42,359 bases of DNA from a bacterium (GTDB lineage Bacteria > Zixibacteria > MSB-5A5 > WJJR01). The stretch covers positions 1-42,359 of the forward strand of contig DATMBC010000012.1 in the NCBI GenBank assembly GCA_035559435.1. The letters run 5' to 3'. Both the position numbers and the translations under genes were made by a program. Under the pieces are notes generated by a model. That model was not told the DNA's origin. It was given only the letters and a program-made list of their open reading frames with translations, and ran no database searches. Positions 3,136-39,592 of the stretch are shown here, in pieces (positions within the stretch are counted from its first letter, which is position 1; each line of letters opens with the position of its first letter).

Positions 3136-3191
3136 AACAAAGACTCCAAGCCGATCGCGGCATAGAGCGCCGCGCCCGACTTGGAATGACG
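3136..3191 (+). repeat. Hairpin repeat, copy 1 (AAGAGC-loop family)
   Basis: It begins AACAAAGACTCCAAG and ends CTTGGAATGACG, with the arms converging on loop ATAGAGC. It is intergenic, between tRNA-Leu and tRNA-Cys, and slightly degenerate. A second short repeat word (3073-3113, containing ATCGCCTCGTTCGGCGG) precedes it and is shared with 12293-12327. Confidence 0.75.
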
Positions 3192-6223: not shown

Positions 6224-6324
6224 AACAAAGATTCCAAGGGGTGTCCGCAAAGAGCGCGGACACCCCTTGGAATGACGGGGGATGAGTTTTGGAGTCGGGC
6301 GCGCTGACACCCCGTCGGATGACG
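6224..6324 (+). repeat. Hairpin repeat, copy 2, with one 47-base tail unit
   Basis: 6231-6248 pairs perfectly with 6256-6273 (18 bp) around loop AAAGAGC, flanked by AACAAAG on the left and GACG on the right. About 47 bases further the end motif recurs in decayed form (near 6317), matching the 47-base unit repeated at 9855-10004. It lies between convergent genes, so the hairpin may also stop transcripts from both sides. Confidence 0.8.
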
Positions 6325-6351
6325 GTTACGTTGTCCGTTTCCCCGACTCGG

Positions 6352-9300
6352 TCAATCGCCGCAGCCAAAGCACGGATCGATGTAGGTGGCCGCGATCATC
6401 TGACCGCGGAAGGCGACACCGACCACCTTGACCGCATCGACGATGTCGGTGACACCGTTGGCGTCGACATCGGAGCGCGCCACCGGACAGCCCGGATCGA
6501 GAATCGCCCCCGCGCCACGGAATGCCACGTTCAGCGTTGCCACCACATCCAGTACATCGGAGCGCACCATGTCGCACTCCGGATCGGCCCAGCACGGACA
6601 GGCGCATTGCACCCCGCTGCACAGATCGGGTGAACAGGCCAACGCCAGCCCCGCATCCACCGTCGCCAGGAACGAGGCCTCGCTGATGGTGTCGGAGGCG
6701 AAGATCGCGACATAGGTCAGGGTCTCGGCGGGGGCAAGAGATCGGCCGCGGTCCAGCGCAAACAACGTGTACAGATCGGCGGCCGAGTCGACGAACATGT
6801 CGGCTCCGTTGGCAGGGAGCGTCAGGATGCGATAAAGGAAGCCATCGCTCGGCCCTCCCCCCGGCTGCAAATCGGTGTAGGCGTTGCCGACCTGGGCGTA
6901 ACCAAACGGCGCCCGTGTCGCGATCCCGGCGCGGAACCGTGTCGCGGTGTTCTGACCCACAGGGACATGGCCGGCGGTGTCGGATCCCTGCACACCCAGC
7001 AGATTCCGATTCATGTCCGCAACCGGCGTGTTCGCGGCGCCGTACTGCACCGCCCCCAGGCGTTTGGCGGGCATCGCATTCAGATCGGCCAGCAAGCCGA
7101 TGGCCAGGTCGGTCACCGGGACCTGCGGGTTGTGGCGGTAGATGCGGTAGCGGGCGATGACGAACTCATCTTTGGCGTAGTCCTGCGGGAAGGCCCACTC
7201 CACCGAGATGCCCACCACCGAATCGCGGGTGCACAGCCGGGTGGACGCGTAGGCGCATCCCATGCCGGTGCCATAGGCCGAGGTGTCGATGATCAGATCG
7301 CTCAACGGACGGAATCCATACTGGCCGTTGGATGGCCGGTCATAGAACCGCAGGAACACGGTGGTGTCGGGGGATTGCGGGCCATGGGCGATGAGCAGCG
7401 AGGCGTCGAAGACCGACCACGACGAATCCGAATGCCGCCACAGCCCGCCCTTGTCATACTGGTCGGCGATACGGCCGTTGTTCTCCACCAGCAACGCCAG
7501 CGAACCGGGGCTGGCCACGCCGGTCTTCATGATCACCGGAGATTCCGGGCAGAAGAACTCATCGAAGACGAAGAACTCCACCGGGAAGACCTGCGGCGAC
7601 GGCTGGGACGGATCGTTGTGCGTGACCGCAATGCTCCCGGTGTACATCCCCTCCGGACCGCCGTTGGCGGTCATGGTGACGGTCAGGATCAGATCGGGGT
7701 CGCCGGCGGGAATGGAGTATGGCCCCGGCGCGCTGACCGCCAGCGTTGGGTTGCCGGGGAAGTCGGAGACGCTGACGTCACCGGTCAGTTCGGCGTTGCC
7801 CAGGTTCATGATCGTCAGGGTGGTCTGCGTCTGGCTGTAGGTCGGGGCGTGGAACTCGCAGACAGGATCCTCCGCCAGTATGGCGGCGAAGTTGGGCGCC
7901 AGATTGGGGCAGAGGTACTGCGCATCGGTGGTGCCGCCGGGAAGGCGCAGGTAATGCACCGGATTCAACTGCCAGGTGCCTTCACCAAGAACCGCCGCGC
8001 CCGCGTCCAGGTCGCTGATGAAGAAGATATCGAGGTCGGAGACGACCAGGCCGATGGAGGCCCAATGTTCCGAGCGGCAAACGCTGTCGGGACGCTGGGG
8101 AATCCCAGTGAGGGTATCGGCCGGGCCGGGATTGCACTGCGGCGTCTTGGTGTTGGTCAAGTTGACTGACGGGCCCCATGTGAGCCCTCCGGTCGGCGAC
8201 ATTGCAAGATAGAGCTCCCCGTTGGCATACCCCAGCGCGGAGATATCCTCCTGCTCGGCCTGAGACTGTCCGCCAAATCGCGTGTAGACAATGTAGACAT
8301 AGTTGTTATTGGACTCGGCGCCTCCCCGGCAGGGTGTCGCGCCGTCGCCGATTCCCATCGTCAGTTCGGACACGTTGAGATTGAACAATCCGGGGAGTGG
8401 CGACAATGACCACGAGGCGTCGACCGCCGTCCGGATGGTGTTGCGGAGGGAATTCCAATGCTTAATCGACGATGCCGTCGATGCGTTGGCTTCATGCTGC
8501 ATATCGAAGGCGATGTGCAATATCCCGCTATTGTCGTAGCAGGTTGAGATGTGCAGCCACGCCTGCGGACCTTGGGGATTCGAATAATTGGTGATGACGT
8601 GCTTGACGATGGGTTCGGTGCCGTCGATCCAGCCGGCGCCATCGGTGGCTGATTCCAGATAGGCCACATTGTTGAGGCCGTTCATCGCCGTGTAATTGTC
8701 GACGTGGACGGCCACGGCGACTTTGTCGCCAGTCGGATCATCGGCAATCGCATAGGAAGGCAGCGGCGTCGAGTCGATCGGCACCGGGCCGGTCCAGCTA
8801 GCGCCATTGTAGCGCCAGTACCAAAGGAGATCGATTGGGCAGTCGTTGACATTGGAATGCGCAAGGATGTGCAGGGTCCGATCGCCATCGCGGGAGGCGG
8901 CGATCAGCGGCCAGAGGGCTTCGTTGCAGGGCGCGGTCAAACCACTCAATCCCTCAGCGATGTGCGAGGCGTTGCCGGGGGTGGGGAAGCCCAGATGCCA
9001 GGGACCATAGGGGAGATTGGGGTCTTCGCGCTGATGCAGAGTGGCCTGGAAGGTGTTGTCCTCGAAGACGGCGCCATTGCCGAATCCGGCGCGGGCGAGC
9101 GTGGAACCGCCAATCGCGACACCGCCGAAGGGTTGGATGAAGTTCCCACCGGACACGGTGTAAGACTGGTAATTCACGCTGCGGTCATTATCGTCGATAT
9201 CTCTGGGAATCCGGTCCCAGGACATCCAGATGAAATGCACGATGTCGGCGCCGGAGGCGCGGGCGGTCTGATACCCATTCCAGCCCTCACCTTGGAAATC

Positions 9301-9630
9301 GTAGGAGGTTTGCGCCAGCGCCAGGCCGGGAGAGGGCGGCGGCGGTGAGGCGGCCGCACTCTGCGAGACCGTCTGAAGAGGCGATGTTTCGACAACGATC
9401 GTGCGGCCGGCATCGGGCGCGAGAGGCCTGTCACCGCGGAGACTGGCGCGTACCTGGCGCAGGTCCAGTGATTGCCGTTTGATTGCCTCGATGCGGGCCT
9501 GATCGACGGCGCGGCGGGTTTTCGGGGACGCTATGGGGCTGGTTTCGTTGGCGTGAGGGGTTTGGAAACCGAGGATGGCAGCGACCGACAAGGCCAGGGC
9601 AATCCCGACAGACCGTTTCGCAATGCGCAT
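6352..9630 (-). CDS. Large secreted protein, propeller-like with Ig-like region and dockerin-like C terminus
   Basis: This exported protein has 1092 residues. I start it at 9630 rather than at the longest frame (9678), because GGGAGG lies 6 bases upstream and the N terminus then reads as a signal peptide (MRIAKRS plus a hydrophobic core). Residues about 90-560 look like a sialidase/BNR-type propeller: repeated aromatic/Asp phrases such as WHLGFPTPG, DGDRTLHILAH and MSPTGGLTWG. An Ig-like region (about 590-690: MNLGNAELTGDVSVSD) follows, then a beta-rich section. The C terminus is the dockerin-like pair (CACPCWADPECD; DVDANG; halves ending AFRG) and ends in CFGCGD. No catalytic Arg/Asp-box set for a sialidase is identifiable, so the enzyme role is open. 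Confidence 0.75.
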   Translation of the reverse strand: MRIAKRSVGIALALSVAAILGFQTPHANETSPIASPKTRRAVDQARIEAIKRQSLDLRQVRASLRGDRPLAPDAGRTIVVETSPLQTVSQSAAASPPPPSPGLALAQTSYDFQGEGWNGYQTARASGADIVHFIWMSWDRIPRDIDDNDRSVNYQSYTVSGGNFIQPFGGVAIGGSTLARAGFGNGAVFEDNTFQATLHQREDPNLPYGPWHLGFPTPGNASHIAEGLSGLTAPCNEALWPLIAASRDGDRTLHILAHSNVNDCPIDLLWYWRYNGASWTGPVPIDSTPLPSYAIADDPTGDKVAVAVHVDNYTAMNGLNNVAYLESATDGAGWIDGTEPIVKHVITNYSNPQGPQAWLHISTCYDNSGILHIAFDMQHEANASTASSIKHWNSLRNTIRTAVDASWSLSPLPGLFNLNVSELTMGIGDGATPCRGGAESNNNYVYIVYTRFGGQSQAEQEDISALGYANGELYLAMSPTGGLTWGPSVNLTNTKTPQCNPGPADTLTGIPQRPDSVCRSEHWASIGLVVSDLDIFFISDLDAGAAVLGEGTWQLNPVHYLRLPGGTTDAQYLCPNLAPNFAAILAEDPVCEFHAPTYSQTQTTLTIMNLGNAELTGDVSVSDFPGNPTLAVSAPGPYSIPAGDPDLILTVTMTANGGPEGMYTGSIAVTHNDPSQPSPQVFPVEFFVFDEFFCPESPVIMKTGVASPGSLALLVENNGRIADQYDKGGLWRHSDSSWSVFDASLLIAHGPQSPDTTVFLRFYDRPSNGQYGFRPLSDLIIDTSAYGTGMGCAYASTRLCTRDSVVGISVEWAFPQDYAKDEFVIARYRIYRHNPQVPVTDLAIGLLADLNAMPAKRLGAVQYGAANTPVADMNRNLLGVQGSDTAGHVPVGQNTATRFRAGIATRAPFGYAQVGNAYTDLQPGGGPSDGFLYRILTLPANGADMFVDSAADLYTLFALDRGRSLAPAETLTYVAIFASDTISEASFLATVDAGLALACSPDLCSGVQCACPCWADPECDMVRSDVLDVVATLNVAFRGAGAILDPGCPVARSDVDANGVTDIVDAVKVVGVAFRGQMIAATYIDPCFGCGD

Positions 9631-9809
9631 AGAGCACCTCCCGCGGAATACCGCCAATAATATAGTTGATTTCCTCACGGTGTGAGGACCGCGAGAGAGC
9701 GAAGGGGTGTGACCGTCCTACGCTTAGAATCTGAGCGTGTGGGGCAGTCTTGTCAAGATGAAATCGGGACATCGATGCGGGGTTTTGACAGCCGTGGTGA
9801 TCGGGGGCA

Positions 9810-9863
9810 AACAAAGATTCCAAGGGGTGTCCGCAAAGAGCGCGGACCCCCCTTGGAATGACG
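9810..9863 (+). repeat. Hairpin repeat, copy 3
   Basis: 9817-9834 pairs with 9842-9859 (18 bp, one imperfect pair) around loop AAAGAGC. Outer words are AACAAAG and TGACG. It is nearly identical to copy 2 (6224) and opens the tandem array that follows. Confidence 0.8.
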
Positions 9864-10004
9864 GTGGGAGAGTTTCGGAGTCGGGTGCGCGGACACCCTT
9901 TGGAATGACGGGGGATGAGTGTAGGAGTCGGGTGCGCGGCCCCCCCTTGGAATGACGATGGATGAGTTTTGGAGTCGGGAGCGCGGACACCCCCTGGAAT
10001 GACG
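9855..10004. repeat. 47-bp tandem repeat array (three units plus end)
   Basis: The word GGAATGACG starts at 9855, 9902, 9949 and 9996, a period of exactly 47 bases. Each unit carries GATGAGT/GAGAGTTT-type sequence, then GGAGTCGGG, then GCGCGG(A/C)C. The units are extensions of the hairpin repeat's right arm. The array ends about 30 bases before the stop codon of the symporter gene. Confidence 0.85.
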
Positions 10005-10032
10005 ATTCCTGCTGATGATTTCAACCGGATTC

Positions 10033-11289
10033 CTACGTGGATTCGCCTTTGGAGACGACCACGGCGGCGGCGAGGTCGCCGGTGACGTTAAGGGTGGTGC
10101 GGCACATGTCGAGGAAGCGGTCGACGCCGAGGATCAGGCCGAGACCCTCGATCGGCACATGGACCATGCCGAGTATCATCGCCACCACTGGCAGCGAGCC
10201 GGCCGGGATGCCGGCGGTGCCGATGCCGCCGAGGATGCAGATGCCGACCACCATGATCTGCTGGGCGAGCGAGAGATCGACGCCATAGAACTGCGCCAGG
10301 AACAGGACGGTCACGCCTTCAAACAGGGCGGTGCCGTTCTGGTTGGCGGTGGAGCCGATGGTGAGGACGAAGCGGCTGACGCTGGGCGGGAGTTTCAGGT
10401 TCTCCTCGGCCACGCGCAATGTGGTGGGCAATGTGGCGTTGCTGGAGGCGGTGGAAAAGGCGGTCAGCATGACCTCCTGAATGTCGCGGAAAAACCGCCG
10501 CGGACTCATGCCGCCGAGCAACTTCACCGAGAGCGAATAGACCACAAAATGGTGGATCGCCATCGCCGCCAGCACGACGATCACATAACGCAACAACTGC
10601 AGAATGACCTCGTATCCCAATTGGGCGGTCAATGTGAAGAGCAAGGCGCCGACGCCGATCGGGGCAAACGAGATCACCAGACCGATGAGGCGCATGGTGA
10701 TGTCGTAGAGGCCGGAGAGGGCCTCCTCGAAGCGGCGCGCCGGCTCGGTCCTGGTCATGATGAGGCCGATGCCGATCATCAGCGCGAAGAACATCACCGC
10801 CAGCATGTCCATGTCGACCATGGCGCGGATTGGGTTGTCGGGGACGATGCGAACGAGGAAGTCGAGGTCGCCCTTGCCCGATTCGGGACGGGCGGTGATC
10901 GCGGCGGCCCTCTCCCCCGCGCCCTCGAGGAGCCGTGCGCGGGTCTCCTCCGACATGCCGCCGCCGGGCTGGAAGAGATTGACCAGGAAGATGCCGAGGA
11001 AGACGGCGATGGCGGACACGACGAGCGTGTAGGCGAACATCTTGACGCCCACGCGTCCGAGACGGCGCGGATCGCCGATGCCGGCGACACCCAGGGCGAG
11101 CGCCGCGAAGATGAGCGGGATGACCAGCATGAACAGCAACCGGATGAAGATCTGCCCGACCGGCTGGGTGACATAGCGGATGAGGTCGCGCAGCGCGGCG
11201 GAATCGCCGAAGAGAAAGTGCGAGGCGGTGCCGAGGATGATGCCACCGGCCAGACCGATGGCCATGCGGGTGTGCAGGGAGCCGCGCAT
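10033..11289 (-). CDS. Dicarboxylate/amino acid:cation symporter (DAACS family)
   Basis: A 418-residue inner-membrane carrier for C4-dicarboxylates or glutamate/aspartate driven by Na+ or H+. The start at 11289 gives the family's usual length; upstream frame residues are not membrane-like. The serine-rich hairpin is SSNAT (282-286) and the second hairpin contains GTAGIP (357-362). The last helix carries the substrate and sodium residues D390, D394, R397, T398, N401 and D405, in the spacing known from GltPh. The unwound-helix motif, NMDGT in most members, is NQNGT here (316-320), so the Asp that helps hold sodium in GltPh is Asn. It is divergent from the reductase gene. The exact substrate cannot be read from the sequence. 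Confidence 0.88.
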   Translation of the reverse strand: MRGSLHTRMAIGLAGGIILGTASHFLFGDSAALRDLIRYVTQPVGQIFIRLLFMLVIPLIFAALALGVAGIGDPRRLGRVGVKMFAYTLVVSAIAVFLGIFLVNLFQPGGGMSEETRARLLEGAGERAAAITARPESGKGDLDFLVRIVPDNPIRAMVDMDMLAVMFFALMIGIGLIMTRTEPARRFEEALSGLYDITMRLIGLVISFAPIGVGALLFTLTAQLGYEVILQLLRYVIVVLAAMAIHHFVVYSLSVKLLGGMSPRRFFRDIQEVMLTAFSTASSNATLPTTLRVAEENLKLPPSVSRFVLTIGSTANQNGTALFEGVTVLFLAQFYGVDLSLAQQIMVVGICILGGIGTAGIPAGSLPVVAMILGMVHVPIEGLGLILGVDRFLDMCRTTLNVTGDLAAAVVVSKGEST

Positions 11290-11434
11290 GCCCAACGATG
11301 GCACGCGACGGGACGCGGCGCAACCGGGATTACGAGGCGGCGAAAACCACTCAAGTTCAGTGTAGACCGGAGTCGATTTCAGGAGTATGATGATCCCGGT
11401 TGCCGCCGCCGTGCGCCGCGCGACTCTGGAGACC

Positions 11435-12199
11435 ATGACCGAGACCAAACACATCACCGCGCGTCTGCGCAGCCGCTTTGAGATCGCCGAGGGGCTGGCG
11501 ATCTTCGTCTTTGAGCCCGCCGCGCCGATGCGCTGGGAGCCGGGGCAGTATGCGACGATCGGCGTGGCCAACGGCGAGCGGATCATCGAACGTCCCTACT
11601 CGATCTGCTCGACCGAGGCGCAGGGCTTCCTGGAGTTCTTCGTCGAGTTGGTCCCGGGCGGGACGTTGACGCCGCTTCTGTGGAACCTCAAGGTCGGCGA
11701 ATGGGCGATGGTCCGTCCGAAGACCAAAGGGCATTTCCTCCTCGACACCGAAAGCGGCCGGACCACGCATCTGATGGTGGCCACGGTCACCGGGATCGCG
11801 CCGTATGTGAGCATGTTGCGGCGCTATCGCGCCGATTTGCTTTCCGGCAAGGAATCGACCATCCATCACTTCATCATTCTCCACGCGGGAAGCCGTTCGC
11901 ACGAGCTGGCCTACCAGGAGGAGTTCCAGGCCTTGTCGATGGATGTGAAGATGCTTCGCTATGTCGCCTCGGTGAGCCGTCCCTGGGAGGAGCCGGACTG
12001 GACCGGCGAGGTGGGCCGCGCCGAGGATGTGCTGCGCAAGTACATCGACGCCACGCGGGTGAAGCCGGCGCAGATGACCGCGTATCTGTGCGGGCATCCG
12101 GGGATGATTCAGACGGGGTCCGGGGTGTTGCAGCGTGTCGGGATGCCGAAAGAGAATATCCGCATTGAGCAGTATTTCCCCCCGTCGGCGGGGGAGTGA
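11435..12199 (+). CDS. Ferredoxin--NADP+ reductase-like flavoprotein
   Basis: A 254-residue cytoplasmic FAD enzyme moving electrons between NADPH and ferredoxin or flavodoxin. Motifs in order: FAD-binding RPYSI (53-57), GGTLTP (75-80), nucleotide-binding VTGIAPYVSML (118-128; Val where GTGIAP is usual) and CGHPGMI (219-225). The C terminus IEQYFP resembles bacterial Fpr-type enzymes, of similar length. The start is uncertain: ATG 11435 has GGAG 3 bases upstream and fits the family N terminus. ATG 11387/11390 follow a strong AGGAG and would add 15-16 residues. It is transcribed divergently from the symporter. The subfamily (plant-type Fpr class) is an inference. Confidence 0.85.
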   Translation: MTETKHITARLRSRFEIAEGLAIFVFEPAAPMRWEPGQYATIGVANGERIIERPYSICSTEAQGFLEFFVELVPGGTLTPLLWNLKVGEWAMVRPKTKGHFLLDTESGRTTHLMVATVTGIAPYVSMLRRYRADLLSGKESTIHHFIILHAGSRSHELAYQEEFQALSMDVKMLRYVASVSRPWEEPDWTGEVGRAEDVLRKYIDATRVKPAQMTAYLCGHPGMIQTGSGVLQRVGMPKENIRIEQYFPPSAGE

Positions 12200-12215: not shown

Positions 12216-12271
12216 AACAAAGATTCCAACCCGGCCGCGGCCAAGAGCGCCGCGACCGGGTTGGAATGACG
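12216..12271 (+). repeat. Hairpin repeat, copy 4
   Basis: 12223-12241 pairs with 12249-12267 (19 bp, one mismatch) around loop CAAGAGC, with AACAAAG and TGACG outside. The inner stem differs from copies 2 and 3 on both arms together. It begins 17 bases after the reductase stop codon. Confidence 0.8.
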
Positions 12272-12309
12272 CCGCTGGAATCATGCGGCCGGGCGGCCCT
12301 GCCGTGTGT

Positions 12310-12380
12310 ATCGCCTCGTTCGGCGGGTCCCAAAAGCGGACCCGCCGAACGAGGCGATGGACAGACAGGAATGTCTGTCC
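12310..12380. terminator. Two strong hairpins between convergent genes
   Basis: 12310-12330 pairs perfectly with 12338-12358 (21 bp, 7-base loop). Directly after it, 12359-12367 pairs perfectly with 12372-12380 (9 bp, GGAA loop). They separate the reductase (+) from the glycosyltransferase-like gene (-), so a bidirectional transcript end is plausible, although no T-run is present. Part of the left arm recurs at about 3094-3110, so it is also a repeat. Confidence 0.5.
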
Positions 12381-39548: not shown

Positions 39549-39592
39549 AACAAAGATTCCAAGCCGGCAAAGAGCGCCGGCCTGGAATGACG
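39549..39592 (+). repeat. Hairpin repeat, copy 6 (inside the capsid operon)
   Basis: 39556-39568 pairs with 39576-39588 (13 bp, one mismatch) around loop AAAGAGC, with AACAAAG and TGACG outside. It is 29 bases after copy 5 and the shortest-stemmed of the family. Confidence 0.8.

Follow-up and report, generated by a model that had tools for sequence, protein, structure and literature searches.

The array at 9816-10004 of the window, by which we mean the whole 42,359-nt stretch analysed here, is best explained as a small minisatellite that grew out of a palindromic repeat, dispersed in the genome and of the CGTC-tagged REP type. In it, a single left arm precedes four right (tag-side) arms. Similar structures recur at other hairpins of the source genome and in its relatives, the extra arms are mostly of local origin, and the preference for the tag side is strong in these genomes. 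We infer that the array arose by slippage at the hairpin and that it lacks a function of its own; most likely, this locus is a by-product of the repeat and not a conserved control element.

The sequence-only reading had reported a four-fold recurrence of GGAATGACG, and the motif is indeed present at 9855, 9902, 9949 and 9996, with a step of exactly 47 nt. Its total of eight matches in the window was reached in none of 100 shuffled sequences (mean 0.73, maximum 4). Tandem Repeats Finder delimited the repeat as 9838-10006, with a period of 47, 3.6 copies, 84% matches and no indels. The word 'exact' in the original description of a 47-bp tandem array therefore fits the step only, as several positions vary among the units. 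Complementarity of the left arm (9817-9834) to the four right arms amounts to 94, 94, 89 and 94%, and the three extra arms retain 14-15 of 16 pairs with it, a layout that agrees with the proposal that the hairpin's right arm and spacer had been amplified in one place. The decayed single unit described after a second copy of the hairpin was likewise recovered (Table 1). Positions 6224-6325 match 9810-9911 with 89% identity over 102 nt, which makes the hairpin at 6230-6277 and its decayed unit at 6278-6324 homologous to the hairpin and first unit at 9816-9910. The same reading had made itself depend on the 47-base unit occurring elsewhere in the genome; outside the array, only this decayed unit was found, so that the dependence held by a narrow margin.

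Table 1. Hairpins, array units and neighbouring genes in the window
Positions	Strand	Feature	Details
3143-3191	+	Diverged family member	GACTCC for GATTCC; arms 82% complementary
6230-6277	+	Second hairpin of the array-head type	Arms 100% complementary over 18 nt
6278-6324	+	Decayed single 47-nt unit	End: GGATGACG
6352-9678	-	Neighbouring ORF, 1108 aa	No Pfam match; start region faces the array
9816-9863	+	Complete hairpin heading the array	Left arm 9817-9834, 7-nt loop, right arm 9842-9859, tag GACG 9860-9863
9864-9910	+	Unit 1, 47 nt	Spacer, second right arm and tag
9911-9957	+	Unit 2, 47 nt	Spacer, third right arm and tag
9958-10004	+	Unit 3, 47 nt	Spacer, fourth right arm and tag
10033-11586	-	Sodium:dicarboxylate symporter family gene (Pfam SDF)	Stop codon 28 nt from the last tag
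12222-12271	+	Family member	Extra arm absent
39555-39592	+	Family member	Extra arm absent

To place the array within its repeat family, we searched the source genome (3.0 Mb, 106 contigs) with patterns of different stringency. A strict pattern found 15 hairpins there and had no match in the 57 other genomes searched, a looser pattern gave 26 matches in the source genome, and a broad one (GATTC...GAATGACR) matched in 117 of 117 genomes searched, in many cases by chance. From the strict and looser patterns together, 24 hairpins were accepted, that is, the 26 looser matches minus three plus one strict match. Left out were L041 (9 of 12 pairs, 6 of the outer 8, GATTCG), L043 and L044; counted were L046 (10 of 12 arm pairs) and L016, which matches the strict pattern but has a core exceeding the length that the looser one allows. 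Read on the other strand, the hairpins follow the plan CGTC-ATTCC-stem-loop-stem-GGAAT. Their outer ends are near-constant and their cores variable yet self-complementary, with 5.33 of 6 inner positions pairing between own arms versus 2.83 with partners from other loci (n = 24).

Some further palindromes accompany the family. At three loci on contig C56 (L017, L018 and L019), a sibling hairpin family, CGTCATTGCGAG-core-CGAAGCAATCTT, adjoins family members; the loop (GCTCTTT or GCTTTAT) and the terminal AATCTT are common to the two, which thus look like two outer frames with interchangeable cores. One hairpin (L024, C92:17304-17349) has its loop in the opposite sense, CTCTCTTTG versus CAAAGAGCG in the others, as if its centre had been inverted. 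Shortly past the hairpin at 12222-12271, the window contains another inverted repeat (12305-12363) with 26-nt arms, 92% complementarity and a 7-nt loop. An Rfam scan of the window returned three tRNAs only.

Extra right arms were found within 90 nt downstream of 6 of the 24 hairpins, extra left arms upstream of none. In the corresponding null searches (at least 11 of 14), a left arm downstream was never seen and a right arm upstream at three loci, L017-L019, all beside the sibling family; we read these as the right arm of the neighbouring sibling hairpin. At other hairpins of the source genome, extra arms follow at steps of 34, 38, 48 and 66 nt. We then compared the eight extra right arms of the six loci with all left arms. 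Six paired strictly best with the left arm of their own locus, the extra arm of L022 tied between its own and two others, and that of L015 paired better with four foreign left arms than with its own. With six of eight matching best at home, the units are mostly local duplicates, not separate insertions.

The same one-sidedness was evident beyond the source genome. Raw pattern matches to pairs of right arms (GGAATGAC, gap 9-39 nt) came to 203, spread over 23 of 58 genomes, with G036 contributing 79; the backward control yielded two. Some of the 203 are whole hairpins or chance: by eye, among the matches listed, a left arm separates the two right arms in at least five, and at least seven seem unrelated to hairpins. 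Left-arm pairs (TGGATTCC) numbered 18 in 10 of the 58 genomes (control, 0); 13 were whole hairpins repeated and five were not. As this left-arm pattern misfits the left flank in the source genome, AAAGATTCC, the left side was assessed there by the census of its own hairpins only. In the loci fetched from relatives, one to six further right arms typically follow a hairpin, and the first step measures 17-23 nt in 43 of 59 array loci, a set chosen for having arrays and from which G036 was omitted as one dispersed element. The G036 arrays (L115-L126, L153, L154) share a similar 20-22 nt unit; being dispersed and often at contig ends, they probably break the assembly. This recurrence with other steps, in the same genome and in relatives, bears out the suggestion that the amplification is a step in how the repeats expand.

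A census of hairpins in the relative G055 covered 100 of 146 matches and excluded duplicates, edges and three hairpins in which 6 of 8 arm positions pair. Two hairpins with arrays at the beginning of contig C8 (in L134) also lie outside it. Among the matches listed, 12 of 88 hairpins had an extra right arm at 17-20 nt, eight of them at exactly 19, versus 0 of 88 with an extra left arm at that distance (Fisher p 0.0003). Any right-arm hit within 120 nt was seen at 17 of the 88; the five right-arm hits beyond 20 nt and the four left-arm hits (39-67 nt), again among the matches listed, are at null level (5 and 9). According to a rough purpose-made gene caller, 2 of these 88 listed hairpins lie inside genes and 12 were not placed, while the remaining 74 include 34 between convergent and 11 between divergent genes. 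The 11 placed arrays among them occur in both orientations to genes, and arrays of both orientations can be found on one contig. At six G055 loci (L201, L202, L203, L205, L210 and L212), a second palindrome with a variable core (for example, ACCCCGCGCCACGCGGGGT) stands after the last tag, which suggests a composite repeat.

In IMG/VR contigs, 30 of 35 right-arm pairs have a left-arm motif directly upstream, and among 57 pairs from a left-arm scan, 2 stand before a hairpin and 55 have none. In a looser count (115 hairpins at 80 loci, among the matches listed), however, the bias was weak: eight had an extra right arm (16-24 nt) and four an extra left arm (23-24 nt), a difference with a Fisher p of 0.37. 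Strict one-sidedness everywhere is rejected by this count, and the strong tag-side bias accordingly applies to the window's relatives and not to all bacteria. Four mutually similar IMG/VR loci (L325, L335, L338 and L340) contain one hairpin with both a repeated left arm and an extra right arm. Searching a phage collection with one IMG/VR stretch of this kind gave no match.

Among known repeats, the family most resembles the CGTC-tagged REPs, a class that includes dRS3 of Neisseria (Di Nocera et al. 2013, PMC3733652). In the sections of that survey on which we draw, the shared traits are a CGTC/TGTC tag, a stem starting with AT and dispersed intergenic copies. The tag (GACG on the strand read here) ends all 24 hairpins of the source genome, and ATTC/GAAT, that is, complementary AT at stem positions 1-2, is present in all 24, both features being required by the search patterns. 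The same sections give a stem of 8-9 bp, a loop of 4-5 nt and a 3-nt tail with the consensus CCA, whereas the five window copies have arms of 13-19 nt and a 7-nt loop, and the hairpins of the source genome mostly read CTTTGTT or CTTTTTT after GGAAT. With its longer stem and loop and different tail, the window family is a variant of CGTC-tagged REPs, not a plain member. The G055 hairpins (TGGATTCCCGC-4 nt-GCGGGAATGAC), in turn, fit the stem of 8, loop of 4 and CCA tail given there; in 76 single hairpins among the matches listed, the tail has G in a fraction of 0.96 and T in 1.00. The survey, in the same sections, regards head-tail dimers of CGTC REPs as negligible and finds elements seldom grouped, except for large clusters in Neisseriae and Wolbachia, and leaves the mode of multiplication open. 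REPINs and REP tandem arrays associated with RAYT transposases occur as singlets, doublets and tandem arrays, as described in the consulted part of PMC3116915, and resemble the present family in being palindromic repeats, single or in tandem. Those arrays repeat whole REPs, however, whereas the window array repeats one arm and has no linked RAYT. Arrays of lone tag-side arms are not described in the portions of PMC3733652, PMC12306157 and PMC3116915 consulted, nor did a literature term search find them; a search by sequence string gave nothing relevant by title among the matches listed. A RAYT-mobilised (GTAG) REP was rejected as an identity for the repeat, as the tag is CGTC and no Y1_Tnp gene is linked.

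Slipped-strand mispairing at hairpins would yield tandem copies of the sequence at the hairpin, and we consider it the most economical explanation and the probable origin of the array, with template switching at the hairpin copying the tag-side arm and ordinary gain of units following. While DNA was being synthesised across the hairpin, the nascent strand would slip and recopy the tag-side arm together with a short spacer, leaving one left arm opposite two right arms. These direct arm repeats could then gain units by ordinary slippage or unequal recombination until the four right arms of 9816-10004 were reached. Stepwise gain and decay would be expected to produce both diverged units and a neighbouring copy with a single unit, as seen here. 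If arm, tag and flank were duplicated in tandem, the spacer should also reappear behind the last arm. Such recurrence ranked in the top 10% of comparisons in 25 of 59 array loci; the other 34, including the window's, showed no clear recurrence, the overall shift was not significant (p 0.06), and an identity of 0.75 was reached in only 14 of 59 loci in an ungapped comparison.

Slipped-strand mispairing alone favours neither arm, so that either should be copied, but G055 shows 12 of 88 right versus 0 of 88 left among the matches listed. The preferred step of about 19 nt (8 of these 12 listed cases) is not accounted for by plain slippage either, and together the two leave room for an enzyme that reads the tag. 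Such an enzyme would recognise GAATGAC (GTCATTC on the other strand), nick beside the tag and prime repeated copying of the tag-side arm, as an HUH/Y1-type enzyme might. In line with this idea, the tag-side bias is strong in these genomes, steps of 19-20 nt are preferred despite differing spacers, and arrays lie in both orientations to genes. We nevertheless regard it as unlikely, since a search of the source genome for the Y1_Tnp class matched only two neighbouring copies, both on contig C70, whose fetched flanks contain no family hairpin, the consulted sections of the CGTC survey saw no transposase gene flanked by such REPs (PMC3733652), and the IMG/VR bias is weak (8 versus 4 of 115, among the matches listed). 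The Y1-transposase-like genes of the two C70 loci (L108 and L109) are very similar and about 1.3 kb from each other; the open frame is shorter in one of them. As a wider proposal, CGTC-type REPs of many bacterial lineages might undergo tag-guided, tag-anchored arm copying in steps of about 19 nt that turns a palindrome arm into a minisatellite, an idea we put forward tentatively. A recurring one-sided intermediate with a preferred step offers a testable handle on the multiplication of CGTC REPs, and one-sided arrays suggest a route from palindromes to bacterial minisatellites.

Alternatively, the extra right arms could be what is left of whole hairpins in tandem after deletion of the left arm and loop. 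Tandem whole hairpins do exist, with tag-to-tag steps such as 33 nt, from which removal of a 14-nt left arm and loop would give 19 (arithmetic on L141 and L142); moreover, 13 of the 18 left-arm pairs are repeated whole hairpins, and by eye the spacers of L144 somewhat resemble the left flank of the hairpin. The spacers of the 12 G055 arrays, however, are G-rich (AGAGGGGC type), not like the left flank GAAGATG, and an identical spacer is repeated in several multi-unit arrays, which renders this origin quite doubtful. An assembly artefact is highly improbable: the assembly does comprise 106 contigs, and the similar arrays of G036 often sit at contig ends, but the units differ (84% matches) and many separate assemblies contain similar structures. 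One-sided copying recurs beside similar hairpins in related bacteria and thus looks like a route of these repeats to tandem arrays, not like a gene-control device.

A selected role for the array, either as right arms competing for one left arm in the symporter mRNA or as a set of protein-binding sites, is improbable. The array does lie 28 nt past the symporter stop, its three extra arms hold 14-15 of 16 pairs with the left arm, and another hairpin with extra arms occurs 5' of a symporter gene in G006. Still, the unit at 6278-6324 is decayed, and the RNA folding energy is only mildly better than that of shuffled sequences (z -1.76, 8 of 200 as good; z -1.19, 23 of 200). Symporter relatives were found in G001 of the same genus (78% identity) and in G005, G006 (both 74%) and G004 (38%) of the same family, and two further genomes gave no match to the gene. 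Neither GGAATGAC nor GTCATTCC occurs in the 420 nt after the symporter stop in G001, G004, G005 and G006. The idea of binding sites beside the symporter thus found no support, these motifs being missing after the stop in one same-genus and two same-family relatives; a control role is not supported for the same reason. No terminator-like site was found by a terminator scan, and two promoter-like hits fall at 9657-9686, outside the array. We therefore rejected a regulatory array, as the relatives' post-stop sequence, the folding and the terminator scan all failed to support it.

Two observations concern the symporter itself. In G006, which belongs to another genus of the family, the hairpin with extra right arms 5' of the symporter gene (L136 and L322, contig C49) is unrelated to the window's; it lies a few hundred nt from the gene and, by eye, after an apparent tRNA end, and we take its proximity as coincidence. 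Finally, alignment of the 517-aa symporter ORF with its three closest relatives starts only at residue 88-93, indicating that the true start may lie further inside.
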